A stretch of DNA of 22,632 nucleotides from a virus. Positions 3 through 21,162 of this stretch are shown in pieces. How positions within the stretch are numbered: position 1 is the first letter of the stretch; each line of letters opens with the position of its first letter. A program made the position numbers and the translations under genes. The notes below the pieces were generated by a model. That model saw nothing but the letters and a program-made list of their open reading frames with translations, searched no databases and was not told the DNA's origin. Location of the stretch: the IMG/VR virus record IMGVR_UViG_3300030385_002035, positions 1 through 22,632 of that record; one strand, given 5' to 3'.

Positions 3-272
3 TCTGACAAACCTATTATAGGAGTGCAAGGACATTGGGATGAAGATAATCCTGACAAAGTAATGGGAGCAGGGTTAGCGATACAGACAAGTCTATTGAA
101 AGAAGTTTGTGGATACAACGAAGAAGAACCTATTAATGATGGAGAGTCTATTGTTCGCAAAATATCTAATGAAGTTTTTGGAACTGCTACATCAAAATGG
201 GGATTAGTCAGAACAGAGAAACCCATTTACAATTATGAACGACATGAGGGGAGTATGTCATGTCCAGGTTAG
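3..272 (+). CDS. Glycosyltransferase-like protein, C-terminal part (5' end outside window)
   Basis: The reading frame is open from the first complete codon, so the gene starts upstream; the GTG at 24 is internal and not a convincing start. What remains (about 89 residues) resembles the end of a GT-A fold, family 2-like glycosyltransferase: a GAGLAIQTSLLKEV stretch followed by CGYNEEEP matches the usual 'x-G-x-x-x-hydrophobic-R/K...GGYDE' region before the acceptor-site Asp/Glu, and the end carries YERHEGSMS, a common terminal motif in this family. The nucleotide-binding half with the DxD motif is not in the window, so donor and acceptor cannot be told. It overlaps the next gene by 13 bp, suggesting translational coupling with the PEP aldolase. 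A role in glycosylating the virion or a host surface sugar is an inference from context. Confidence 0.6.
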   Translation, partial: SDKPIIGVQGHWDEDNPDKVMGAGLAIQTSLLKEVCGYNEEEPINDGESIVRKISNEVFGTATSKWGLVRTEKPIYNYERHEGSMSCPG

Positions 273-1063
273 CGAAGTTATTCGGACCTGATGCAAAATA
301 CCCTTTAGTACGTTCCTATCAAGAGAAAGAAGCACCAGAGTTAAATTTCATTGCAGGACCATGTTCCATAGAGAATTTGGAACAGATATATGCCATAGCT
401 TGTAAGGTACGACAAGCAGGTGCAACTATGTTACGAGGTGGTTGTTATATATATGGAACGTACCCTCCAGAGAATAGTGGATTTGTAGCAGATAGATCAC
501 TATCTCTTTCAACAGCAGCAAGTGGAAACAAACTTCCTTGGATAGTGGAAGTGATGGATGCACCAGATATGCAACACGTTACCGATGCAGACTGGATACA
601 AATAGGTATGCGTCATGCACAACATTATCCGTTGTTGAAAGCGATAGCTTCTTATGGAAAGAAAGTATTATTAAAGCGTGGTTCATGGATGACAGTTGAT
701 GAAACGCTTGGGGCTATAGAGTATTTGCTTCAACATGGAGCAGAAGATGTAGCAATATGCGAAAGAGGAATGGTTAGCTTTGAAGACCATTGTAGGTGGA
801 GTTTCTCTGCTTCGTTTATTGCGATGATAAAAGAATATACTGCATTGAAAATAGTAGCTGATCCTTCTCATGGCAGTGGAGATAGAAAGTTAGTTCCTAG
901 ACTTGCGAGAGCAGGAATAGCAGCAGGGGCAGATGGAGTATTATGTGAAGTACACCCTAACCCTGACGAATCTGTTTCCGATGCTGAACAAGCGATTGAT
1001 TACGACACCTTTGAAGAAGTAGTGAAAGGGTGTAAAGAAATAAAGGGATATATTTATGGCTAA
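260..1063 (+). CDS. DAHP synthase-like (class I) PEP-condensing aldolase
   Basis: This 267-residue protein has the TIM-barrel signatures of class I 3-deoxy-7-phosphoheptulonate synthases, which join phosphoenolpyruvate to an aldose phosphate in the first shikimate step. The metal ligands are all seen: Cys35 in AGPCSIE, His204 in DPSHGSG, Glu230 in CEVHP and Asp241 in VSDAEQ. PEP/phosphate-binding motifs VLLKRG (Lys139, Arg140) and CERG (168-170) are intact. There is no regulatory ACT or chorismate-mutase domain, so it is a bare catalytic core. The odd point is the loop after RGG (residues 59-61): the family's KPRTSP motif, which contacts the phosphate of erythrose 4-phosphate, is replaced by CYIYGTYPPENSGF. 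PEP condensation is therefore likely kept while the sugar partner may differ. It lies between a glycosyltransferase and a structural gene and overlaps both (13 bp and 8 bp). Confidence 0.85.
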   Translation: MSRLAKLFGPDAKYPLVRSYQEKEAPELNFIAGPCSIENLEQIYAIACKVRQAGATMLRGGCYIYGTYPPENSGFVADRSLSLSTAASGNKLPWIVEVMDAPDMQHVTDADWIQIGMRHAQHYPLLKAIASYGKKVLLKRGSWMTVDETLGAIEYLLQHGAEDVAICERGMVSFEDHCRWSFSASFIAMIKEYTALKIVADPSHGSGDRKLVPRLARAGIAAGADGVLCEVHPNPDESVSDAEQAIDYDTFEEVVKGCKEIKGYIYG

Positions 1064-2645
1064 CAACCTCCAAATGCAAAGAGTGGAGTTTGGAAAGAAT
1101 GTTGGTGGTATCAATGATTCCACGCAGATAACGTCTGTGAAAGAACATGAAGCGTTAGATATTCATAATGTCAGGTTAATACCTACAGGTGGGATACGAA
1201 AGAGAAAAGGATACTATGTTGTTAATACAGCTAGCCTTGTCGGTTCTGGAACTATCACTGGCGTTTTTAATTATCTACGTTTTACTGGAAACTCAGACTT
1301 AATTGTATGTGTGAATAGTGGTAGCGTTGCGAATAAGATATATAAAAAAGATGCTGGAACAAATACGTTCACTTCCATTACTCCTTCAGGAACATTTTCA
1401 GGTGGTGATGTAACCTTCGCTGTGTCTAACGATTTATTGATGATTGCGTCTGATGGTGGTTCTAACATATTACAATGGGATGGTTCCGCTACCGCCTGTA
1501 CTGATTTAAACACAGCGACTGCTCCTTTGGCAGAAGTGGTAAGTGACTGGAATAGACACGCTGTTGCTTTAAAGATACCAGCGAGGGGAAGTAACTTTGA
1601 AATATCACATCAAGGTGATTCTGCACAGTGGAGAAATTCTGATCGGTTTCCTACGGATAGACAGACTATTGGGGCAACTACGTTATACGATGACTTGTTT
1701 ATCTTTACCACAGATAGAATGTATCGTGTTTCAGGTCACGATAGGGATGATGTCCGAATGGATGCAGTTAGGCTTTCTGTAGGGGCTACGAATCAAAGAA
1801 GCATAGTCAACGTAGCGAATAGAAACTTAATAGTCTGGCCTTGGAGAGAGAATTTCTACGAGTTCGATGGTGTCAATACACGCATTATATCGAACAGAAT
1901 AGAAAGACCTCTTGCCAATACCAGCGACTTCTTTAACATTAACTTAGCAAAATTTGACAATATACAAGGTGTAAATATTGCATCACAGTCTAGGGTAAGT
2001 TTTTTAGTTGCACAAAAAAATGAAACCCAAAATAGTCTCATATTAAATTACAACTATGATTTAAGAACACCAGACCCTAAGACAAACCAACCTATAGGTG
2101 CATGGACTGTAGATGAATATGACAGAAACTTTGCTTACCTATCTGTTGCAGTGGAAGACGATCAAGAAGTGTTGTATGCAGGTGATTATGATGGTCATCT
2201 ATGTAGGTTAGAAGTTGGAGATGCAGATGGAGATTCCTCTAATGATGCCAATGATGGAAACGCTATTGTATCTCGATATCAGACAGGTCCATTTCATGCA
2301 AATATGCCAGACGTAACAAAGAGATGGAGAGAAATTATTCCCATTGTCGGACAGACTTCCAGTGGAACTGTAACTATCAGTACCGCAGAGAATTGGGCTG
2401 GTAGTTTCATAACCGCAGATACAATTACTTTAGCGACAGGAGGGTTTGCTTCCTATTGGGGAGTCTCTAAATGGGGAGAAGATTTATGGGGAGCAGCGAT
2501 ATCGGTTATTAAACGATTATCTTTATCAAACCGAAGTGAAGCACTTTCTATAAAGTTTTCCGATTCCAGTAAAGACCCTTCATGGCGTATTGATACTTGG
2601 GTTTTGAGATATCAAGTTCTACCAGGATTGAGGCGATTTGAATAA
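1056..2645 (+). CDS. Virion structural protein, probable tail nozzle/stabilising beta-propeller-like protein
   Basis: This 529-residue protein begins with a segment typical of phage tail-tube or nozzle proteins: an early 'EALDIHNVRLIPTGGIRKRKG'-type stretch (about residues 28-49), meaning 'named N-terminal joints followed by Gly and basic residues'. It continues as repeated beta-rich blades with SDLIVCVNSG, NILQWDG, LFIFTTDRMYRVSG, NFYEFDGVN and EVLYAGDYDGHL, a spacing that suggests a propeller. An Asp-rich loop (about 389-401, GDADGDSSNDAND) looks like a calcium site. It ends with WRIDTWVLRYQVLPG. The family resemblance is to T7 gp12-like nozzle or P22-type stabilising proteins, but this is judged by pattern only. 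Its ATG overlaps the aldolase gene by 8 bp, and the next gene starts in its stop codon (TAATG). Confidence 0.6.
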   Translation: MANNLQMQRVEFGKNVGGINDSTQITSVKEHEALDIHNVRLIPTGGIRKRKGYYVVNTASLVGSGTITGVFNYLRFTGNSDLIVCVNSGSVANKIYKKDAGTNTFTSITPSGTFSGGDVTFAVSNDLLMIASDGGSNILQWDGSATACTDLNTATAPLAEVVSDWNRHAVALKIPARGSNFEISHQGDSAQWRNSDRFPTDRQTIGATTLYDDLFIFTTDRMYRVSGHDRDDVRMDAVRLSVGATNQRSIVNVANRNLIVWPWRENFYEFDGVNTRIISNRIERPLANTSDFFNINLAKFDNIQGVNIASQSRVSFLVAQKNETQNSLILNYNYDLRTPDPKTNQPIGAWTVDEYDRNFAYLSVAVEDDQEVLYAGDYDGHLCRLEVGDADGDSSNDANDGNAIVSRYQTGPFHANMPDVTKRWREIIPIVGQTSSGTVTISTAENWAGSFITADTITLATGGFASYWGVSKWGEDLWGAAISVIKRLSLSNRSEALSIKFSDSSKDPSWRIDTWVLRYQVLPGLRRFE

Positions 2646-2947
2646 TGTCATCTAAAAAACTTCGTAAGCCTTTGTTTATACAGGACTTAAATGACCAATT
2701 TGCACCAAGAGTTTTACACGATAATGTTATGGGTATCTACCATTTCTTAGATACAAATATGGAATGGGGATCAGCTACCTCGAATACTGGAACTACATTA
2801 TCTAAAATTAAATCGACAGATTACATTGTAAATATCACCCCTTTAGCAGAACCAGGAAGTGCAACAGTTACAAAAGCTACTGCTTCTTTCACTTACACTA
2901 CAAGTGCAACAGTGGCATTTAATTATTTAGTTATTGGATCAAGTTAG
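2645..2947 (+). CDS. Small beta-rich virion protein
   Basis: A 100-residue protein that starts in the stop codon of the preceding structural gene (TAATG), so it is almost certainly translated with it. The first 45 residues are mixed (KKLRKPLFIQDLNDQF, then YHFLDTNMEWG). The second half is Ser/Thr/Ala-rich and beta-like: PGSATVTKATASF, then a terminal FNYLVIGSS. This composition matches the fibre protein immediately downstream and is usual for small tail or decoration proteins. I do not recognise a named family. Its position between the nozzle-like protein and the fibre suggests a connector or fibre-attachment role. Confidence 0.65.
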   Translation: MSSKKLRKPLFIQDLNDQFAPRVLHDNVMGIYHFLDTNMEWGSATSNTGTTLSKIKSTDYIVNITPLAEPGSATVTKATASFTYTTSATVAFNYLVIGSS

Positions 2948-2955
2948 GAGTTATT

Positions 2956-4674
2956 ATGGGAACAGTTTCTCGCCCTTACACTTACACTGCTGGTGATGTT
3001 ATTCAACCAGCCGAAGTTACAGACAACGAGACAACTTTATATAGTCTCGTTAATGGAAACATAGACAACGACAACATAGATTCTTCGGCAGCAATCAAGG
3101 CCTCTAAACTTGATCTTGCCTCTGCAACTACAGCTTCATTCTCTAAGAATGTACTTATGTCTTTGTCTTCCACTATTACATTGGGAACAACAACACAAAC
3201 GATTGCTGTAGGTAGTTCTGCTACAGTAACTATCACCGCTAGTGGCGGAGTTGCCGAAATAGGCAAAATGACTGTCATAGCTAGTGCTACTGTCGGCAAT
3301 CTTAAAGTGTCAGGTACTGCGACATTGGGTGCATTGGCTACGCTAGGTACATTGGTCGTATCAGGAACTGCTACGATAAGTGGTCTGGTATGTAGTGGCA
3401 CTGCGACTGTGGGAGATTTGAAAGTATCCAACACAGTTACCATACCGAACTTAGTCGTATCAGGCACAGCTACATTAGGTAACATTATTGCCAGTGGCAC
3501 AGCGACAATCAATACCTTGGTTGTATCGGCTACATCTACATTAAAAACAATAGTTGTAAGTGGAACTGCTACGATAGGAGACTTGAAGGTTAGCAATACA
3601 GTAACGCTACCAAGTTTGGTGGTGTCAGGTACTGCTACGTTAGGCAACATTATAGCGAGTGGAACAGTGGTAGGTAATTCATTATTAATATCCGCTACTG
3701 CAACATTGAACTCATTAGTTGTGTCAGCGACATCAACTTTAAATACGTTAGTAGTTTCAGCGACATCAACTTTAAAGACAATCGTAGTAAGTGGAACAGC
3801 TACAGTAGGAGATTTAAAGGTATCAAATACTGTTACCCTCTCTAAGATTGTCGTATCAGGAACAGCAACACTTGGAAATATAAAAGCGAGTGGAACAATA
3901 GTGGGTAATTCGCTAGTCGTTACCGCTACTGCGACAATCAATACAATGGTCGTAGCAGCCACAGCGACACTAAACACTCTAGTCGTATCAGCTACGTCTA
4001 CTCTGAAAACAATCGTGGTGAGTGGCACAGCTACAGTTGGTGATTTGAAAGTAAGTAACACTGTTACCTTATCGAATATAGTAATAAGTGGAACTGCTAC
4101 GTTGGGTAATATTATCAATAGTGGAACTGCGATAACAAATTCGTTACTTGTCTCTGCTACGTCAACTATGCTTTCTCTTGTTGTAAGTGCAACTGCTACA
4201 TTGGGAGATTTGGTAGTAGGTGGTCGTGGTTTGGGAAAGGTGTTGCAAGTTGCTCACACTACCACAACTACTGAAACGCAGACAACCAGTGCTTCTTTCG
4301 TAACAACTTCATTAACTTTAGATATATTACCAGCAAGTTCTGCTTCCGTAATAAATATTGGATTAGCTAGTAATATTAATATAGGTGGTACTAGAGGAAA
4401 TTGGGTTTATTGGACTATATTCAGATTTACAAGTGGAACCACAACGGGAACCAATATATCTGGAGAAGATGATGGATTTGGTGGCGTATACATTGAACAA
4501 GATGGGGCTAACTTTGACCTTCATGTTCCGATGGCTGGTTTTACTGTGGATTCACCAAATACAAATGTTACCGCAACGTACACTGTGATGATTCGTGTTA
4601 CTGGTGGAACTGGAAAACTTAATCAAAATCAACCACATAAAGCGTCAATGGTTCTTTCTGAGATAGGAGCATAG
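2956..4674 (+). CDS. Tail fibre/adhesin-like protein with 28 eleven-residue repeats
   Basis: This 572-residue protein has three parts. Residues 1-104 form an N-terminal module (RPYTYTAGDVIQPAEVTDNE, NGNIDNDNIDSS) of the kind seen at the virion-attachment end of phage fibres. Residues 105-418 consist of 28 units of an 11-residue repeat with consensus (L/I)-V-V-S-G-T-A-T-L-G-N, broken once by a six-residue insert (LATLGT) after unit 2. The alternation of hydrophobic and Ser/Thr residues at fixed phase predicts a beta-helical or beta-solenoid shaft. Residues 419-572 are a distinct beta-rich C-terminal domain starting GRGLGKVLQVAHTTTTTE, a head sequence common to receptor-binding ends of marine phage fibres. 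GGAG precedes the ATG. The function as a host-recognition fibre is inferred from architecture and position; receptor unknown. Confidence 0.75.
   Translation: MGTVSRPYTYTAGDVIQPAEVTDNETTLYSLVNGNIDNDNIDSSAAIKASKLDLASATTASFSKNVLMSLSSTITLGTTTQTIAVGSSATVTITASGGVAEIGKMTVIASATVGNLKVSGTATLGALATLGTLVVSGTATISGLVCSGTATVGDLKVSNTVTIPNLVVSGTATLGNIIASGTATINTLVVSATSTLKTIVVSGTATIGDLKVSNTVTLPSLVVSGTATLGNIIASGTVVGNSLLISATATLNSLVVSATSTLNTLVVSATSTLKTIVVSGTATVGDLKVSNTVTLSKIVVSGTATLGNIKASGTIVGNSLVVTATATINTMVVAATATLNTLVVSATSTLKTIVVSGTATVGDLKVSNTVTLSNIVISGTATLGNIINSGTAITNSLLVSATSTMLSLVVSATATLGDLVVGGRGLGKVLQVAHTTTTTETQTTSASFVTTSLTLDILPASSASVINIGLASNINIGGTRGNWVYWTIFRFTSGTTTGTNISGEDDGFGGVYIEQDGANFDLHVPMAGFTVDSPNTNVTATYTVMIRVTGGTGKLNQNQPHKASMVLSEIGA
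3268..4209 (+). repeat. Array of 28 coding 33-bp repeats, with a 231-bp higher-order period
   Basis: The array encodes 28 in-frame 11-residue units. Two units are followed by an 18-bp insert, and 26 more run without a break from 3352. A higher-order pattern is visible: units beginning LKVSNTVT recur at 3418, 3583, 3814 and 4045, so the last three are spaced exactly seven units (231 bp, 77 residues) apart. The blocks at 3583-3813 and 3814-4044 match at 64 of 77 residues by my count. At the DNA level copies differ largely at synonymous sites: SGTATLGN at 3625-3648 and at 3856-3879 is identical in protein but differs at 8 of 24 bases. Confidence 0.9.
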
Positions 4675-4676
4675 AT

Positions 4677-4997
4677 ATGATAGATATTATTGATGCAATT
4701 TTAGCTTTAGACTCCAATGCAGTAGTAACCATGCAAGGTCAAGAAATATCAGGGTTAAGATGGGAAGATGGCAATCCCAATAACATTACCAACCAACAAA
4801 TATTAGATAAACAAACAGAGTTAGAGTCTAAATATACCAATGACGAGTATAAGAGAAATAGAAAAAATGCGTATCCTACGTTTAGTGATTTCGTGGAAGC
4901 ATATACTGAGAAAGAAATCTTAACTAGAAGCGATAAATGGATGGCATATATAGAGGCTTACAATAAAGTACGAACTGATTTTCCGAAACCAGAATAA
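4677..4997 (+). CDS. XkdW-like small virion or fibre-associated protein
   Basis: A 106-residue protein starting 2 bp after the fibre stop. Its N-terminal half (DAILALDSNAVVTMQG, then ISGLRWEDGNPNNITNQQIL) follows the pattern of the small XkdW-like proteins encoded beside phage tail fibres: a helix, two strands with a Trp, then 'x-ITxxQIxxKxxEL'. The second half is helical and charged, with aromatic residues (AYPTFSDFVEAYTEKEIL, WMAYIEAYNKV). The role of this family is not settled; adjacency to a fibre suggests assembly or attachment. No signal peptide or membrane segment. Confidence 0.6.
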   Translation: MIDIIDAILALDSNAVVTMQGQEISGLRWEDGNPNNITNQQILDKQTELESKYTNDEYKRNRKNAYPTFSDFVEAYTEKEILTRSDKWMAYIEAYNKVRTDFPKPE

Positions 4998-5009
4998 AGG
5001 GAATAAATT

Positions 5010-5105
5010 ATGAACTGCAACTGCAAATTTCCATGTACGTGTAGCATTGTCGCAGTCGTTATCGGTATCATCACTGGTATCGTTATTTATCAAATAGGAC
5101 TATAG
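5010..5105 (+). CDS. 31-residue Cys-rich membrane microprotein
   Basis: A very short ORF with a good ribosome binding site (AAAGGG at 4996-5001, 8 bp before the ATG) in the otherwise unexplained gap between two genes; it ends 1 bp before the next ATG. The product opens with MNCNCKFPCTCS, four cysteines in two C-x-C pairs, followed by one membrane-spanning segment (IVAVVIGIITGIVIYQIGL). The Cys cluster could bind metal, be acylated or form disulfides. I do not recognise a family. Because no longer ORF competes on either strand and spacing fits the operon, I believe it is expressed; function is unknown (a lysis-related or virion membrane role is possible). Confidence 0.6.
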   Translation: MNCNCKFPCTCSIVAVVIGIITGIVIYQIGL

Positions 5106-5106
5106 A

Positions 5107-5340
5107 ATGAATAATTTAGGGGTTTGCATAAGTGCGTTTGTAGCATTGATAGGTGGTTTATATATTGTATTGCAATTATATGCTTACCCTTTACCAGAAG
5201 GTAGAAAATTGGAAGTGCGTGTCGATTCCAATGAGAAAATGGTACAGAGTATGGACATGAGACAGAGGTCTATAGCAGATAAAGTAGGAAAGATACATGG
5301 CATATTGGTTGATCAAATTAAAGATAAGAATCACGATTAA
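5107..5340 (+). CDS. Small membrane protein with one N-terminal transmembrane helix
   Basis: A 77-residue protein starting 1 bp after the stop of the Cys-rich microprotein, so the two are probably coupled. Residues about 8-26 (ISAFVALIGGLYIVLQLY) form a membrane segment. The remainder is soluble and heptad-like (LEVRVDSNEKMVQSMDM, IADKVGKIHGILVDQI), compatible with a short coiled coil outside the membrane. This design occurs in phage holins, antiholins and inner-membrane spanins, but a separate holin-like gene and spanin pair lie further right, so the role is open. No cysteines beyond Cys7. Confidence 0.6.
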   Translation: MNNLGVCISAFVALIGGLYIVLQLYAYPLPEGRKLEVRVDSNEKMVQSMDMRQRSIADKVGKIHGILVDQIKDKNHD

Positions 5341-5357
5341 CCGCCCAAGAGGTTTAT

Positions 5358-6305
5358 ATGGATAATGCAGGTCTTCTAAAGAAGGAACAGTTAAAAGCTA
5401 GGAACGAAAAGATAATGCAAGGTTGGTTACACAAATGGGTATCCAATACTGCTACCAACTATGGAAGTAAACTGCTAGGCGAAAAAGAAAACTTCGCTAA
5501 CTTATTCATGGCACACAAGGGAACGCCAGCATTAATTACAGGGTCAGGTCCTAGTTTAGAAGATACCATTCCTCATATAAAGAACTTTGATGGATTGGTT
5601 ATCAGTACCAATAGTTCCATGAGCCTGCTATTAAAGAATGGGATTAAACCAGACTACGTACACGTATTTGATGGACAATATCGGTCTGAGAGAATAGGGA
5701 ACCTTCCCATAGATGGCATTAAACTGATATGTGCAACCTTTGTTTTGCCAGACATGGTGGAGTTTTGGAAGACGAAAGGTGATGTATATGGATTCAGTGC
5801 TTTCGATCCAGAGGAAGCATGGTTTAAGAAGTATATGTGGTATATGTACCGAGACTATGTAGGTATTCCCACTAGTGGTTCGGTAGGCCCCAATGCTATT
5901 CGATTGGCAGCCTATATGGGTTGTGATCCGATTATCATTACAGGATTAGATCAGACCTTCACTGATGGAAGATACCGAGTAGATCAATACGATTACGTTG
6001 ATGATAAATATGTATTGAAAGATTTTGATCACGAAGAAGCGATTAACAAGCAACCTATCAGTTATCACAATGGCAAACAGCTTTGGTATATCACTGGAAT
6101 GATGTACCGAACAGCGATTGTGGGGATAGCAGATGAGTTAAGGGATAAGGGATTATCGGTTGTTCGTTGTCACAATCAAGGCGATCCAAATTTTTATAAG
6201 GTAGAAGGTGTTCTACTTAAAGAAACTAAAGGAATTAAAGTAATGAACGCTACTATGGGTGGCGTATGGAAGAATGAACTTCCGAGATATGATTTAGTTG
6301 CATAG
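5358..6305 (+). CDS. MptE/Maf-like (DUF115) protein
   Basis: A 315-residue protein with the DUF115 signature: ALITGSGPSLED (58-69), VISTNSSM (81-88), GIKPDYVHVFDG (95-106), then GSVGPNAIRLAAYMGCDPI (174-192) and ITGLDQTFTDG (194-204). The fold is Rossmann-like with a Gly-rich nucleotide-binding loop. Known members include archaeal 6-hydroxymethyl-dihydropterin diphosphokinase MptE and the bacterial Maf proteins that transfer nonulosonic sugars to Ser/Thr of flagellin. No other pterin gene is present, while sugar genes and a Ser/Thr-rich fibre are, so a Maf-like glycosylating role is favoured here by context only. AAGAGG lies 6 bp before the ATG. Length is close to the bare DUF115 core, without the extra domains of flagellar Maf proteins. 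Confidence 0.75.
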   Translation: MDNAGLLKKEQLKARNEKIMQGWLHKWVSNTATNYGSKLLGEKENFANLFMAHKGTPALITGSGPSLEDTIPHIKNFDGLVISTNSSMSLLLKNGIKPDYVHVFDGQYRSERIGNLPIDGIKLICATFVLPDMVEFWKTKGDVYGFSAFDPEEAWFKKYMWYMYRDYVGIPTSGSVGPNAIRLAAYMGCDPIIITGLDQTFTDGRYRVDQYDYVDDKYVLKDFDHEEAINKQPISYHNGKQLWYITGMMYRTAIVGIADELRDKGLSVVRCHNQGDPNFYKVEGVLLKETKGIKVMNATMGGVWKNELPRYDLVA

Positions 6306-12930: not shown

Positions 12931-13213
12931 ATACAAGACTGCAATTTTGGCACTAAGTATGTTCTTTGTCCTCGGTGCTACTCCGACCCAAGAAAAAAAA
13001 GAAGTAGTTCGTTTCGTTATGCCAGCGTTTAAACAGACTTGTTTCTCGCCCATACCTTGCATAGCCTATGGGATAGGGTATGACAGTATAAAACATGGAG
13101 CCAAGTTTGCAGATTACATTGAAATTAAAATTGATTCTGAGTGCTTTAGGAAAAATATACTCCCGCTTGTTAAGAAAGATAAGGATGAAAGACAGATTCG
13201 ATTCCGCTTTTAA
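12926..13213 (+). CDS. Small exported protein in the lysis block
   Basis: A 95-residue protein with a typical signal peptide: MIYKTAILALSMFFVLGA, basic then hydrophobic, with likely cleavage after ALGAT-like small residues near position 18-20. The mature part has three cysteines (CFSPIPC and one in DSECFRK), consistent with one or more disulfides in the periplasm, and a basic C-terminus. GAGAGG lies 5-6 bp before the ATG. It overlaps the endolysin gene by 29 bp. I do not recognise the family; its position suggests a lysis accessory or periplasmic factor, and an envelope-directed role in exclusion is an alternative. Confidence 0.6.
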   Translation: MIYKTAILALSMFFVLGATPTQEKKEVVRFVMPAFKQTCFSPIPCIAYGIGYDSIKHGAKFADYIEIKIDSECFRKNILPLVKKDKDERQIRFRF

Positions 13214-13688
13214 GAGGCTAATGATATTCGAGGGTGGACACGTTATAGATGAAAGAGATCCAGGTGGTGAAACAAAGTATGGTATCTCTAAGCGTTCTTA
13301 TCCAGAGATAAATATAAAGTCTCTCACTAAACAACAGGCGAAAGAAATATATCGCAAAGATTGGTGGAAGAAATATAAGTACGAGAAGATGGCTACCATG
13401 TGTGATGGAGATTACTCAGAAATAGCTATCAGGTTATTTATTCTCGCTGTAAATATTGGTCCCAAAAATGCACATAAATGTTTGCAACGAGCATTAATTT
13501 CCTGTGGCGAGGAACTAGATGTAGACGGAATCATAGGAGGAGCAACGAAATCTTTGCTTCTATCTAACGGACACAGAATCATTTTTCCATTCAGGTCCGA
13601 AGCTGCTGGGTTTTATAGATCACTAGTGGCAGGTAGACCAGAACTAAAACCCTTCTTAAAGGGTTGGCTCGATAGAGCCTATTCATAA
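13185..13688 (+). CDS. Endolysin, GH108-type N-acetylmuramidase with C-terminal peptidoglycan-binding region
   Basis: The 167-residue protein cuts the peptidoglycan glycan backbone at lysis. The glycoside hydrolase 108 signature is clear: FEGGHVIDERDPGGETKYG, with the catalytic Glu16 in EGG, followed by GISKRSYPEI and the helix KEIYRKDWWKKY. The second half (KCLQRALISCG, LDVDGIIGGATKSLL) matches the PG_binding_3 region that normally accompanies this family. I chose ATG 13185 rather than the upstream in-frame ATG at 13095 because the family starts just before the EGG motif and the extra 30 residues are shadow sequence of the preceding gene. There is no signal peptide, so export needs the holin. 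It overlaps the preceding gene by 29 bp. Confidence 0.88.
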   Translation: MKDRFDSAFKRLMIFEGGHVIDERDPGGETKYGISKRSYPEINIKSLTKQQAKEIYRKDWWKKYKYEKMATMCDGDYSEIAIRLFILAVNIGPKNAHKCLQRALISCGEELDVDGIIGGATKSLLLSNGHRIIFPFRSEAAGFYRSLVAGRPELKPFLKGWLDRAYS

Positions 13689-14119: not shown

Positions 14120-14228
14120 CGTGAGTTGCGAAGTATTTAAGGTAATTACTTGGTCTGACAAAGATACCAAACCTACGTTGGAACAGGTGTTCGCCCATAA
14201 CATAACTTGGGATACTATATGCCAGTAA
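13974..14228 (+). CDS. Rz1-like outer-membrane spanin lipoprotein, embedded out of frame
   Basis: The ORF lies in another frame inside and beyond the Rz-like gene, sharing 13974-14119 with it. It carries a lipoprotein signal: basic KRCRRAF, hydrophobic VPAILLIGIS, then the lipobox MSSC with the acylated Cys at residue 38 and SS following. The mature part is short and ends with ITWSDKDTKPTLEQVFAHN and WDTIC, a phrase that recurs in small phage lipoproteins next to endolysins. ATG 13974 gives a long n-region; a TTG at 14022 would give a more typical 21-residue signal and may be the true start. It overlaps the phosphoesterase start by 10 bp. Confidence 0.7.
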   Translation: MTGLLTQFIRRLRSKTLKRCRRAFVPAILLIGISMSSCSSLKNINARTDVSCEVFKVITWSDKDTKPTLEQVFAHNITWDTICQ

Positions 14229-14974
14229 CCTACGCAATTTTAAATGACATCCATATTCCCTACCATGATAAGAAGGTACTAAACTTAGTCTTATCTTTCC
14301 TTAAAAAGAAAGAGGTGAAGATAGATGAGATTATTTTAAATGGGGACATAGTTGACTGTTATCCCATTAGTACATTTGATAAGAAACCATTTAGCCCTTC
14401 GTCTATAGACCTTGAGATAGAGGAACTAGAAAAGTTTATTAAGGAACTGCAAAAGATAACACCCAAGATTACCTATATAGCAGGAAACCATGAAGATAGA
14501 ACCAGAAAATGGATATGGAAGAATGAAGTTATCCATAGACTGGGACAGGACAGGGGAATACAGGTAAGTAAATTATCCTTCGCTACCCTGTATGGACTAG
14601 ATGATTTAGGTGTGAAGTATTTAGAGTATGGTGATGGTGTATGGCTAGGAAAACTCTTTTGTACCCACGGCCGAGTGGTACGCAAGCATAGTGCTTTTAG
14701 TGCAAAGGCAGAGTGGGAAGGTAATGGTTGTTCCACATTGACTGGACACACGCATAGAATAGGTAGGTATTCTGTAACTTTAAGAGGAGGAACATACGCC
14801 TCCTTTGAAAATGCCTGTCTCTGCTCCCTAAATCCAGAATACATAAAGGGAGTTCCTAACTGGCAACATGGGTTCTCTATAGTTCATGTGTCACCTAATG
14901 GCTTATTTAATGTCAACCAAATCGACATTCTCAAGAGGAGTAGCTTGTTCTATGGCGGAAAAGAGTATTCTTGA
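14219..14974 (+). CDS. Calcineurin-like metallophosphoesterase
   Basis: The protein (251 residues from ATG 14219) has every metal-binding motif of the family: Asp10-x-His12 (NDIHIP), Gly-Asp43 (NGDIVD), Asn90-His91-Glu (GNHED), His150 (CTHG) and Gly-His177-Thr-His179 (GHTHR). It should be a two-metal phosphohydrolase; the substrate cannot be told from the motifs, but the phage-borne single-domain forms are often nucleotide phosphodiesterases or nucleic acid end-processing enzymes. I preferred ATG 14219 to TTG 14207 because the next residues go directly into the first strand (VTYAILND) and ATG overlaps the spanin stop by 10 bp. It is the last convincing gene of the rightward arm. Confidence 0.85.
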   Translation: MPVTYAILNDIHIPYHDKKVLNLVLSFLKKKEVKIDEIILNGDIVDCYPISTFDKKPFSPSSIDLEIEELEKFIKELQKITPKITYIAGNHEDRTRKWIWKNEVIHRLGQDRGIQVSKLSFATLYGLDDLGVKYLEYGDGVWLGKLFCTHGRVVRKHSAFSAKAEWEGNGCSTLTGHTHRIGRYSVTLRGGTYASFENACLCSLNPEYIKGVPNWQHGFSIVHVSPNGLFNVNQIDILKRSSLFYGGKEYS

Positions 14975-17055: not shown

Positions 17056-17269
17056 TTAAGTCTTCCTTATTTAGATTTAAAGCATTGACAATACTTTCTT
17101 CCGTGCAACCTGTTCTACACCTAACTACGATTCTTCCTGTTTTGTTAGATGTGAAGAAATAAAGACTTGGGCGTTTGTCGTTGTGTGCTGGGCAAAGACC
17201 TCTCCACCAAGAACCATTCGGAGAACCCTTTGCCTTCTGAATATAGGTGCTAAATTCTTCTATATTCAT
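16931..17269 (-). CDS. CHC2-like primase zinc-finger protein
   Basis: A 112-residue protein with a primase-type zinc ribbon: Cys26-x2-His29 (WWRGLCPAHNDKRPS), then Cys51-x3-Cys55 (VVRCRTGC), a strong match to DnaG/T7 gp4 zinc domains that recognise the template priming site. The helix TEESIVNALNLNKEDLN follows; in ordinary fused proteins the TOPRIM module would come next. Here that module continues in the +1 frame from ATG 17055, while this frame runs 125 bp further into a Gly/Arg-rich tail (YGSGAGGQNSKRYPRRQR) that may have no function. The start (ATG 17269) overlaps the dehydrogenase stop as ATGA. Confidence 0.75.
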   Translation of the reverse strand: MNIEEFSTYIQKAKGSPNGSWWRGLCPAHNDKRPSLYFFTSNKTGRIVVRCRTGCTEESIVNALNLNKEDLNGDRIHLQGHYGSGAGGQNSKRYPRRQRDLLEKAIKDNSPL

Positions 17270-18585
17270 AGCGAAAGCACCTTACCTTCCTTTTGATAGT
17301 ATTCCACTTGTTTCGGATATACGTTGCAGCAGTCAACTATACTTTTTGCGTCTAAAAATATTTCGTCAAAATTTTTAATACTTGAATGTCTTTGAAGGAT
17401 GACCACGCAATCAAATTCACCTACATTACTGAGTGCCACACTCTTCACTTGCTTATCCTTCGATAACCAAAAAGAAGAAACGAGAGGGTCATGGTACTGG
17501 ACATCCACATTTTCTTCCCCCAAAACATTCCACAACGCTCTGCAAGCAGACTCTCTTGTATCAGATACGTCTTTTTTATAAGAGGCACCAATTAACAAAA
17601 CCTTCTTGCCAGATATATTTACATCTTCTAAGGTTATATCTCCCACCGCTTTTTTAATAAGCCATGCTATATGTATCGCCATCGAGTTATTGACAGCTAA
17701 AGCCTTTTCCAACATACCTAACCTACAGTTTACCTGTTTCGCTGACCAAGCCAAACAAGAACTATCCACTCCGATACATTCTCCGCCAACTGAAGCTGAT
17801 GGATAGAAACTCTGGAATCCAAAAGGTTTAGTCTTCGCAGCATCGATTACTTCCCAAATATCTATATCAATCTTGGAAGTAAACTGACTCAATTCTTGAA
17901 TTAACGCACTGTTAACCATTCGGTATGAGTTTTCCAAAAGTTTAGAAGTCTCGCAAACTTCTGGAGAGGAACAGAGAATGGGAGGGCATATAGTCTGATA
18001 CAGATACTCTGTTATTTCACCGCAGTTATCTGTAATTCCACTGACTAGTTTTGGCACGTTGTGAATGAAAAATTTTTCATTTCCTGGATCTACTCTCTCA
18101 GGGCTACAACCCATAAAAAAATTATGTCCCACCTTGCATTTTTCTCCCTCTAACAATGGAAGAATTGAGTTTCTTGTCGTTCCCACAGGTACAGTTGACT
18201 CCAAAATAACCAACTTATTTTCCGCAGAAGGAATGTCCTGCACTGCTTTCTCTATGGCACTGAGGTCAGGATTCCCTGTCTTTGCTCTAGGAGTTGGAAC
18301 ACAGATAATAATAATATCGCTGTTACTTCCTTGAAATTGTTGAGGGTCAGAGTTGACATCAAATTTCAGCAACTCATACTTAGGGTCTTTGAACTTATCT
18401 CTAAGCATAGATATTCTCTTGGAAGAAATATCATAACCTGTGACAGGGAAACCCTGTTGGGAAAAAGCACTTCCCAACGAGGACCCTACGAAACCACAAC
18501 CAATGATACTAATTTTAGCCTTACGCATTTCTATTTTCTCAAGCAGTTTCTTGCCAACAGTAGATTGCTTAGAAGGGAATGTCAT
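17266..18585 (-). CDS. UDP-HexNAc/UDP-sugar 6-dehydrogenase-like enzyme (WbpA/WecC type)
   Basis: A 439-residue protein, full length for the family that oxidises C6 of UDP-N-acetylhexosamines to uronic acids with two NAD. Seen: NAD-binding GCGFVGSSLG (29-38), ESTVPVGTT, CSPERVDPGN (160-169), which is the UDP-GlcNAc/ManNAc dehydrogenase form, ETSKLLENSYRMVN with Lys215, KPFGFQSFYP, and the catalytic Cys270 in VGGECIGVD. The C-terminal domain has KVLLIGASYKKDVSDTRES. Odd: the usual GGHCIP carries Glu for His and Gly for Pro, and PGPG is SAS, so activity or substrate may be changed. The N-terminus has 20 extra residues; AGGAGG 9 bp before ATG 18585 favours this start over ATG 18528. It sits, unexpectedly, between replication genes. 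Confidence 0.85.
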   Translation of the reverse strand: MTFPSKQSTVGKKLLEKIEMRKAKISIIGCGFVGSSLGSAFSQQGFPVTGYDISSKRISMLRDKFKDPKYELLKFDVNSDPQQFQGSNSDIIIICVPTPRAKTGNPDLSAIEKAVQDIPSAENKLVILESTVPVGTTRNSILPLLEGEKCKVGHNFFMGCSPERVDPGNEKFFIHNVPKLVSGITDNCGEITEYLYQTICPPILCSSPEVCETSKLLENSYRMVNSALIQELSQFTSKIDIDIWEVIDAAKTKPFGFQSFYPSASVGGECIGVDSSCLAWSAKQVNCRLGMLEKALAVNNSMAIHIAWLIKKAVGDITLEDVNISGKKVLLIGASYKKDVSDTRESACRALWNVLGEENVDVQYHDPLVSSFWLSKDKQVKSVALSNVGEFDCVVILQRHSSIKNFDEIFLDAKSIVDCCNVYPKQVEYYQKEGKVLSL

Positions 18586-20369: not shown

Positions 20370-20436
20370 AACCTCACATAATAATATATACACACTTATA
20401 TACTATCATGCTTGTCAAGTTTCAAAATAAACTTGC
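20370..20436 (-). promoter_or_regulatory. Candidate leftward promoter with overlapping palindrome
   Basis: Between the methyltransferase stop and the next gene, on the minus strand, TTGAAA is followed 17 bp later by TATATA (or 19 bp by TATAAG), and a TTGACA lies a few bases further on. The putative -35 is inside a perfect palindrome, CAAGTTT-N6-AAACTTG (20416-20435), which also spans the methyltransferase stop codon. The region beyond is very A/T-rich. A promoter under repressor control for the replication operon is plausible; a weak terminator hairpin for the upstream operon is the alternative, though no U-tract follows. Confidence 0.4.
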
Positions 20437-21162
20437 ATTCAATCTGTTCTCTGCTATCTCTAAATAATTCGGCAACAACTCACTTCCAACATATCTTCTA
20501 TTCATTCTTCTTGCGACTAGAGCTGTCGTTCCTGTTCCTAAAAATGGATCATAAACTCTATCTCCCTCGTTAGAAAAGTTTGTCAAAACCTTTTCAACTA
20601 ATTCTTCAGGAAAAGCCGCTCCATGATAAGAACCCCTGGATCTTTTCCTCTCTCTCTTTATTCGCCAAACATCATCAAGAGTACCCCTTGCAAATGGGGC
20701 TTCCTTAAACTGCCTGTATTTTGGATGGGAGTTTTCAAAAACTAAGATTAGTTCGGAACGTCTATTTAAAACTTGTTTCGACATGGATGGAATCCCATGA
20801 CATTTATCCCAAACAATAATCTCTTTCAGCTTGTCGTGAAAATCTCCTATCATTTTAAAGAAAGGAATCTTACTGCCTGTGACTATTTGAATGACGTAAA
20901 ATATTAAGTCACTCACTCTCAACATTTCTTCCAACGCTTTTTTATGAAACTCATAAAATTCTTCTATTGGAAGATTGTCATTGAACCCATCGTACTTGGT
21001 GCTAAATTCTTTCACCAATTCCCTCGATATATATTTACCTTTGCTCAATCGTAAATTCATATTGTAGGGAGGGCTTGTGATAATGAGATTTATAATTCCA
21101 TCAGGCATTTTCTTCATCGTTTCCAAGCACGATTCATTGTATAAATGATTGTCTTTTATCAT
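20422..21162 (-). CDS. DNA methyltransferase, N6-adenine/N4-cytosine, beta-type order
   Basis: A 246-residue amino-methyltransferase. The catalytic motif IV is TSPPYN (29-34), near the N-terminus; the S-adenosylmethionine motif I is YDPFLGTGTT (204-213), near the C-terminus, preceded by HGAAFPEELVEKVL. This motif order is the beta class. The target recognition region should be the middle, with WRIKRERKRSRGSYH. SPPY is shared by N4-cytosine and many N6-adenine enzymes, so the base cannot be told. No restriction endonuclease is beside it, making it an orphan that may protect phage DNA from host restriction or time gene expression. AGGGGG lies about 7 bp before the ATG. Confidence 0.88.
   Translation of the reverse strand: MIKDNHLYNESCLETMKKMPDGIINLIITSPPYNMNLRLSKGKYISRELVKEFSTKYDGFNDNLPIEEFYEFHKKALEEMLRVSDLIFYVIQIVTGSKIPFFKMIGDFHDKLKEIIVWDKCHGIPSMSKQVLNRRSELILVFENSHPKYRQFKEAPFARGTLDDVWRIKRERKRSRGSYHGAAFPEELVEKVLTNFSNEGDRVYDPFLGTGTTALVARRMNRRYVGSELLPNYLEIAENRLNASLF

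Follow-up and report, generated by a model that had tools for sequence, protein, structure and literature searches.

A genus of marine phages carries a conserved set of sugar enzymes inside its tail-gene operon. This cassette may make an activated acidic keto-deoxy sugar and attach it, most likely, to the phage's own tail, a reading to which slightly less than an even chance is given here. The comparisons support one part of it, namely that a CMP-ulosonate would be made by the phage and used by a DUF115 protein. The window analysed is a stretch of 22,632 nucleotides of viral DNA (IMG/VR record IMGVR_UViG_3300030385_002035), the start of which cuts the cassette and leaves the cytidylyltransferase (CTPT) outside. 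The arrangement of the genes is not due to chance, as every relative whose contig covers the region has the same order, with zero exceptions: adaptor, methyltransferase, radical-SAM enzyme, CTPT, GT2-family glycosyltransferase, aldolase, tail hub, fibre and DUF115. Neighbouring genes overlap, by 13 bp between the glycosyltransferase and the aldolase and by 8 bp between the aldolase and the tail hub. The cassette genes are under purifying selection, with dN/dS values of 0.06–0.17, similar to that of the capsid gene (0.08). The cassette has no dedicated sugar phosphatase, which counts against the proposed pathway.

A first-pass annotation of the window had proposed a virion glycosylation cassette around a repeat fibre. 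All the genes it named are present where it placed them; the span that it gave for the cassette, 260-5358, omits both the glycosyltransferase and the DUF115 protein. The predicted co-occurrence of the gene types in related phages holds without exception across the genus, and no case of a fibre kept with the sugar genes randomly lost was seen within it. Of the interpretation itself, the phage-encoded keto-deoxy-sugar pathway is supported, while a standard nonulosonic acid as product, the membership of a dehydrogenase and the fibre as acceptor are not.

The pathway is completed by an enzyme that had not been seen in the first pass. In 14 of the 14 contigs that extend far enough, the glycosyltransferase and aldolase genes are immediately preceded by that of a CTP_transf_3 cytidylyltransferase, in the place where a CMP-keto-deoxy-sugar pathway needs such an enzyme. 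The protein matches PF02348 (E 2e-13, 51.3 bits vs a cut-off of 22.6), carries the QARMxSxRLxGK motif as QARMDSRRLYGK and is matched weakly by KdsB models; a tblastn search with it against the INPHARED phages gave no match. Further upstream come genes for a methyltransferase and a SPASM radical-SAM enzyme. The window opens with the C-terminal 89 aa of the glycosyltransferase (3-272, + strand). Alone, this fragment matches no glycosyltransferase family, and its earlier assignment was upheld through a full-length relative (G008_50/L008:1633-2298; 99% identity) that matches Glycos_transf_2 (PF00535, E 7e-8). The full-length enzyme is short, at about 203-222 aa, and its N-terminus with a DAD motif falls outside the window. 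CMP-sugars are seldom used by GT2 enzymes, a point that counts against the proposed pathway.

The PEP-condensing aldolase at 260-1063 (+ strand), correctly named in the first pass, is a synthase of the DAHPS type Iβ family (DAHP_synth_1, PF00793, E 6e-45; PDB DAHPS 1vs1, 1zco and 1rzm). With the DAHP synthases of the Thermotoga, Pyrococcus and Aeropyrum type it shares the fold family, the metal tetrad (Cys35, His204, Glu230 and Asp241) and most, not all, of the PEP-binding residues (Arg59, Gln114, Arg118, Lys139 and Arg169 are kept). It differs from them in the KPRT motif, which is replaced by IYGT (I64, G66, T67), and in the TRNTLD region, which reads CRWSFS. All 10 aligned synthases of the genus have YIYGT or YVYGT, with Ile or Val for the Lys and Gly for the Arg, whereas both KPRT residues are kept in all five DAHPS-family sequences compared and in the aligned PDB enzymes; the predicted sugar-binding motif is unlike that of every relative compared. 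It has been reported that the Lys of KPRT contacts PEP and that the Arg and Thr contact erythrose 4-phosphate (E4P) (PMC6362186). The IYGT change removes the PEP-contact Lys and the E4P-contact Arg; without this Lys, the synthase could have a different chemistry or be inactive.

Matches to the curated models fall under their cut-offs: 228.6 bits for the DAHP synthase model TIGR01361 (cut-off 267.75), 19.1 bits for NeuB PF03102 (E 1e-3, cut-off 22.1) and 76 bits for the KDO8P synthase equivalog model (E 2e-21, cut-off 314). An assignment as NeuB was rejected on the DAHPS-like character of the enzyme and its PF03102 score. Because the synthase is DAHPS-like with an altered aldose site, its product probably differs from the standard nonulosonic acids. 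Two scans of genome contigs that required exact pattern matches, and beyond which cellular relatives may exist, gave no relative for the aldolase alignment and only two chance matches for the synthase loop pattern.

The synthase could also act separately from DUF115, as an ordinary DAHP synthase and an auxiliary metabolic gene that boosts the shikimate pathway of the host. Its closest matches are DAHP synthases, at about 35-42% identity, and its PHROG match, phrog_5045, is labelled DAHP aldolase. However, the substituted KPRT runs through the genus, and the gene has those of the cytidylyltransferase and glycosyltransferase as its neighbours and, unlike DAHP synthase Iβ, no shikimate genes around it. 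This ordinary shikimate role was rejected for these two reasons and is considered highly improbable.

The DUF115 protein (5358-6305, + strand; MptE-like PF01973, E 1e-26), present as first annotated, is a candidate Maf-like transferase of 315 aa with the motifs GSGPSL and TSGSV..A..LA...G...I...G.D. The central domain of Maf is pfam01973, and CbMaf transfers Neu5Ac and KDO from CMP-sugars onto Ser/Thr (PMC11339370). The phage protein and Maf (PseD/Maf, PDB 5mu5) share the DUF115 domain with its GxGPS motif, the partnership with a PEP-condensing synthase and a CMP-sugar synthetase, and a proposed transfer to Ser/Thr. Unlike Maf, for which the solved chain is 666 aa, the phage protein matches the central domain only and lies within a phage tail operon without flagellin. 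It also scores below the curated cut-off for FlagModPseD (33 bits vs 670, residues 55-222 only) and, at its length, does not have the three-domain architecture of a complete Maf. No match was returned by tblastn against the INPHARED phages, and the literature search found no paper on DUF115/Maf virion glycosylation in phages.

The Pfam name would suit a 6-hydroxymethylpterin diphosphokinase with no link to glycosylation. A Foldseek search with a low-confidence AlphaFold model (19 sequences, pLDDT 57) placed Methanocaldococcus HPPK/MptE best (E 4e-7 to 5e-6) but also matched Maf (E 2.5e-6), so that the fold does not tell the two apart; a model built on only six near-identical sequences had been poorer (pLDDT 45). 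Against this, the profile alignment to Maf 5mu5 reaches E 5e-19 across 185 positions and both domain halves, and that to the archaeal pterin kinase reaches E 2.5e-4 over only 61 of 292 profile positions, so that the E-value for Maf is lower by some 15 orders of magnitude. The Maf-like character suggested in the first pass is supported by this far better alignment. No folate or pterin genes were noticed near DUF115, and elsewhere in phages DUF115 proteins accompany NeuB and CTPT. A pterin kinase is scarcely credible.

The use of a phage-made CMP-ulosonate by DUF115 gains support from three other phage contigs, in which a Maf-like DUF115 is paired with NeuB and with a cytidylyltransferase homologous to that of the cassette (E about 1e-14 to 1e-18). 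PseB/PseC/PseH-like enzymes are also found in these contigs (typed in L149), and the clusters of L149 and L151 adjoin tail or fibre-like genes. A total of 62 phage DUF115 loci were found outside the genus. DUF115 alone does not imply a CMP-ulosonate pathway, as in a flank profile search most of these loci had no PEP aldolase and only one had a CTPT. The first domain of 478-aa DUF115 proteins, considered glycosyltransferase-like from a DLD motif seen by eye, was dropped after no database match was found.

The tail genes begin with a podovirus tail-hub (‘stabilization’) protein (1056-2645, + strand), which is 86-95% conserved in relatives and matches the stabilization protein of Pseudoalteromonas phage Y3 in tblastn (E 2e-7). 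A small tail-associated protein (2645-2947, +; ORF 82-94% conserved) separates it from the tail fibre (2956-4674, +), which consists of an N-terminal anchor, a repeat shaft and a C-terminal domain. Downstream are a phage protein, phrog_9114 (4677-4997, +; E 1e-15), and a 77-aa membrane protein judged holin-like by eye (5107-5340, +; 86-100% conserved). The fibre anchor is 95-97% identical in most contigs, and the shaft comprises 29 eleven-residue units of the VVSGTATLGNI type from residue 105 to 423. The Ser/Thr-rich repeat described in the first pass was recovered, with 3-5 Ser/Thr in 28 of the 29 units; the whole protein is 30% Ser plus Thr, the top value in the window. A repeat-pattern scan for the fibre was too strict for use as a control, and tblastn of the fibre against INPHARED phages found no match.

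This richness is weak evidence for glycosylation, because a relative with a similar anchor and a fibre-like protein of 25% Ser plus Thr has no annotated sugar genes. It was rejected as proof of O-glycosylation, and the fibre as glycan acceptor is not supported. The absence of annotated sugar genes from the adaptor-hub-fibre region of phages Y3 and ctLwi270 counts in favour of the preferred reading. With the tail the most likely target, the shaft would be the leading candidate acceptor.

A gene order shared within a single genus does not show whether the target is on the virion or on the host surface. The same CMP-ulosonate pathway could serve to place the sugar on a surface glycan of the host late in infection, blocking superinfection or keeping new virions from sticking to debris. 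Phages do alter host surface sugars, as in the conversion of pseudaminic acid in the Acinetobacter capsule by prophage epaA/epaB (PMC12053666). An integrase also stands beside the NeuB and Maf cluster of one phage contig (G026). Surface-glycan loci typically carry radical-SAM, SAM-methyltransferase and SpsF-type genes. However, the cassette is situated inside the tail operon, overlapping the hub gene, and no tyrosine integrase was found in the genus (G000, G008, G019, G005 and G013) and no polymerase or flippase among the typed genes. The Maf enzymes described in PMC11339370 act on a protein. A host-surface target is unlikely, though it deserves serious consideration.

A nucleotide-sugar dehydrogenase (17266-18585, - strand; TIGR03026, E 4e-92) is present as first annotated, and its inclusion in the cassette was rejected. 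This UDP-sugar dehydrogenase probably belongs to another system, since it is in the early module, evolves much faster (identity between relatives of about 40-50% vs about 96%) and in two relatives is near a TET-associated-type, or DNA-type, glycosyltransferase (TAGT). The sugar enzymes might serve DNA hypermodification, with the TAGT placing the sugar on phage DNA. PF20691 is matched in G008 (E 1e-50) with a homologue in G019, and a nucleotide-sugar epimerase and the dehydrogenase lie outside the tail block. The CTPT, GT2 and aldolase genes sit instead in the late tail block, away from replication genes, and TET/JBP was not detected in a search run without a positive control. DNA modification would explain the dehydrogenase better than it does the cassette, for which it is improbable.

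Under the preferred reading, a sugar destined for the tail, the cassette would be expressed with the tail genes as a single late block. The DAHPS-fold synthase would condense PEP with an aldose, probably not erythrose 4-phosphate, and the upstream cytidylyltransferase would use CTP to give a CMP-ulosonate. The Maf-like DUF115 may then move the sugar, most likely onto Ser/Thr of the phage's own tail, where the fibre shaft is the main candidate. The GT2, radical-SAM enzyme and methyltransferase would extend or tailor the glycan, with a possible effect on adsorption or masking. A more specific version, that the DAHPS-fold enzyme was recruited for another aldose and yields an undescribed keto-deoxy sugar acid, CMP-activated and O-linked by a stand-alone DUF115 to the fibre shaft, is rather doubtful.

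The KdsA/KdsB and NeuB/NeuA pathways, including the KdsA|KdsB pair of cyanophage S-SCSM2R, likewise place a PEP-condensing synthase beside a CMP-transferase and can be phage-borne; the cassette differs in its DAHPS-like synthase, its weak KdsB matches and its tail-operon location. In mycobacteriophages, phage-encoded glycosyltransferases also act on virion proteins, with glycans at capsid and tail-tube C-termini (Freeman et al. 2023, cited in PMC12619734); the portion of PMC12619734 drawn on here does not mention a CMP-ulosonate synthase.

If the preferred reading is true, phages can synthesize and activate their own acidic sugar, beyond borrowing host sugars. Such a sugar on the tail would alter charge, adsorption and recognition. 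With the PEP-condensing enzyme named, its substrate could be found by one assay. The unexplained MptE-like/DUF115 genes of many uncultured aquatic phages (62 loci outside the genus) would also gain a possible function.

The left arm of this 22.6-kb virus record, a phage fragment, carries on its plus strand the 3′ end of a GT2 glycosyltransferase gene (3-272), a PEP-condensing synthase (260-1063), a tail-hub protein (1056-2645) and a Ser/Thr-rich repeat fibre (2956-4674), with one small protein between hub and fibre. After the fibre come two more small proteins and then the DUF115 protein (5358-6305). The genes from which the first-pass annotation had proposed a virion glycosylation cassette are all present. 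GT2 overlaps the synthase by 13 bp, and the synthase overlaps the hub by 8 bp. To the right lie a GH108 endolysin (13095-13688) and a calcineurin-like phosphoesterase (14207-14974; 76-86% conserved among relatives), which is possibly a sugar phosphatase.

The cassette is cut by the window edge. The synthase recurs at 93-100% identity in 19 stretches from 18 IMG/VR contigs, which we take to be marine from the kind of dataset. In one relative (L008/G008) the genes upstream begin with a lysozyme-like one, followed by a cytidylyltransferase (CTP_transf_3, PF02348, E 2e-13) and then a full-length GT2 (PF00535, E 7e-8). The cytidylyltransferase was found in all 14 contigs reaching that far upstream; the other five end or start too near for its position to be covered. 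Beyond the cytidylyltransferase, the interval from the head-tail adaptor to the tail hub also includes genes for a class I methyltransferase and a SPASM radical-SAM protein. The suggested co-occurrence of the gene types holds in the relatives, gene order and content being identical in all contigs covering the region. Two distant relatives, Pseudoalteromonas phage Y3 and Podoviridae ctLwi270, have an adaptor-hub-fibre region without annotated sugar genes, which gives the cassette the look of an insert in a block of tail genes. The lysozyme-like gene is pesticin-like, a second one besides GH108 (L008 309-920), and lies directly upstream of the cytidylyltransferase in G008 and L016. The large terminase of the genus occupies two separate reading frames (L026 9032-9961 and 10235-10909), both 94-98% conserved, and may be a gene that is split or interrupted.

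The dN/dS values are 0.06 for GT2, 0.08 for DUF115, 0.10 for both the cytidylyltransferase and radical-SAM genes, 0.13 for the synthase and 0.17 for the methyltransferase, compared with 0.08 for the capsid protein. With the fixed order and content and the overlaps, these values show that purifying selection maintains the cassette, and the gene layout suggests co-expression with the tail.

The synthase is a member of the DAHP synthase Ibeta family and not of NeuB, and it scores under the curated cut-offs for both DAHPS and KDO8PS. By the residue roles published in PMC6362186, it retains all four metal ligands and five PEP contacts. At the KPRT motif the PEP-contact Lys is replaced by Ile and the E4P-contact Arg by Gly, and Y-[IV]-Y-G-T occupies this site in 10 of 10 aligned genus members, one of which has a 4-aa insertion in the loop. 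Among 2.9 million viral contigs, only those of this genus matched the DNA pattern of the loop, and a related pattern gave two matches in 84,980 prokaryote species, both by chance. A changed acceptor aldose is the likely meaning of these replacements; a dead synthase is unlikely because of the purifying selection.

As sole query, the DUF115 protein matched Maf (5mu5) at E 6e-5. A profile including distant phage relatives reached Maf at 5e-19 over 185 positions, against only 2.5e-4 over 61 positions for archaeal pterin kinase with the same profile. The structural comparison with Maf and MptE proposed earlier does not separate the two: a modest model (pLDDT 57) resembles both Maf and pterin kinase in fold and, more weakly, sialyltransferases. 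It is the sequence profile that favours Maf. Clostridial Maf moves Neu5Ac and KDO from CMP-sugars onto Ser/Thr, and the central Maf domain (pfam01973) is similar to the sialyltransferase Cst-II (PMC11339370).

A motif scan beyond the genus gave 62 DUF115 loci, the majority encoding ~478-aa proteins on other podovirus-like contigs. An FkbM-type methyltransferase lies near the DUF115 gene in 47 of the 62, and the profiles used here detected no PEP aldolase or cytidylyltransferase near most. In this large group, exemplified by L123, the 478-aa protein (3194-4630 in L123) has an N-terminal domain besides DUF115, and it and its FkbM neighbour (2225-2911) lie upstream of the tail genes. Three loci (L149 8753-17304, L150 3248-11728 and L151 1217-10096) hold in one run a Maf-like DUF115-TPR protein, acetyltransferase, SDR, NeuB (in all three), aminotransferase, oxidoreductase and cytidylyltransferase; the L149 enzymes match PseH, PseB, NeuB/PseI and PseC models. 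Their DUF115 proteins (E 8e-10 to 1e-13) and cytidylyltransferases (E about 1e-14 to 1e-18) share homology with their counterparts in the window's genus, whereas the synthases are of different families. Tail or fibre-like genes adjoin the run in L149 and L151, one of the three clusters having baseplate and fibre genes, and an integrase lies near that of L150. The clusters are mutually homologous, perhaps spread by transfer, and therefore count as one independent DUF115-cytidylyltransferase pairing.

The nucleotide-sugar dehydrogenase (17266-18585, minus strand), earlier linked to the cassette, is better separated from it: it sits beside a recombination gene of ERF type and one resembling a primase-helicase, and its identity among relatives is only about 40-50%. 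It is probably part of a different system, which may be DNA glycosylation. Two relatives, G008 and G019, encode a TAGT-family glycosyltransferase of the TET-associated type in the early region (L027 1548-2396, in G008, PF20691 E 1e-50; G019 21582-22745), and close to their terminase they have an epimerase. A search run without a positive control detected no TET/JBP gene in these relatives. The window's early module also holds an N6/N4 DNA methyltransferase (20422-21162; PF01555 E 3e-38).

The cassette is built from known families, while the papers searched do not describe a tail-operon CMP-sugar cassette whose DAHPS-like synthase has lost its KPRT motif. It is likely that the phage encodes a CMP-ulosonate pathway together with a Maf-like transferase. 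Fibre Ser/Thr content, 26-31% across the genus, had been read as a sign of glycosylation; it is weak evidence, as the ctLwi270 collar protein has 25% without annotated sugar genes (the Y3 fibre has 14%; two phages, a comparison and not a statistic). The main rival, a host-surface acceptor, is less likely than a tail acceptor. The best guess, a tentative one for the reading as a whole, is that the phage's own tail would be the acceptor.
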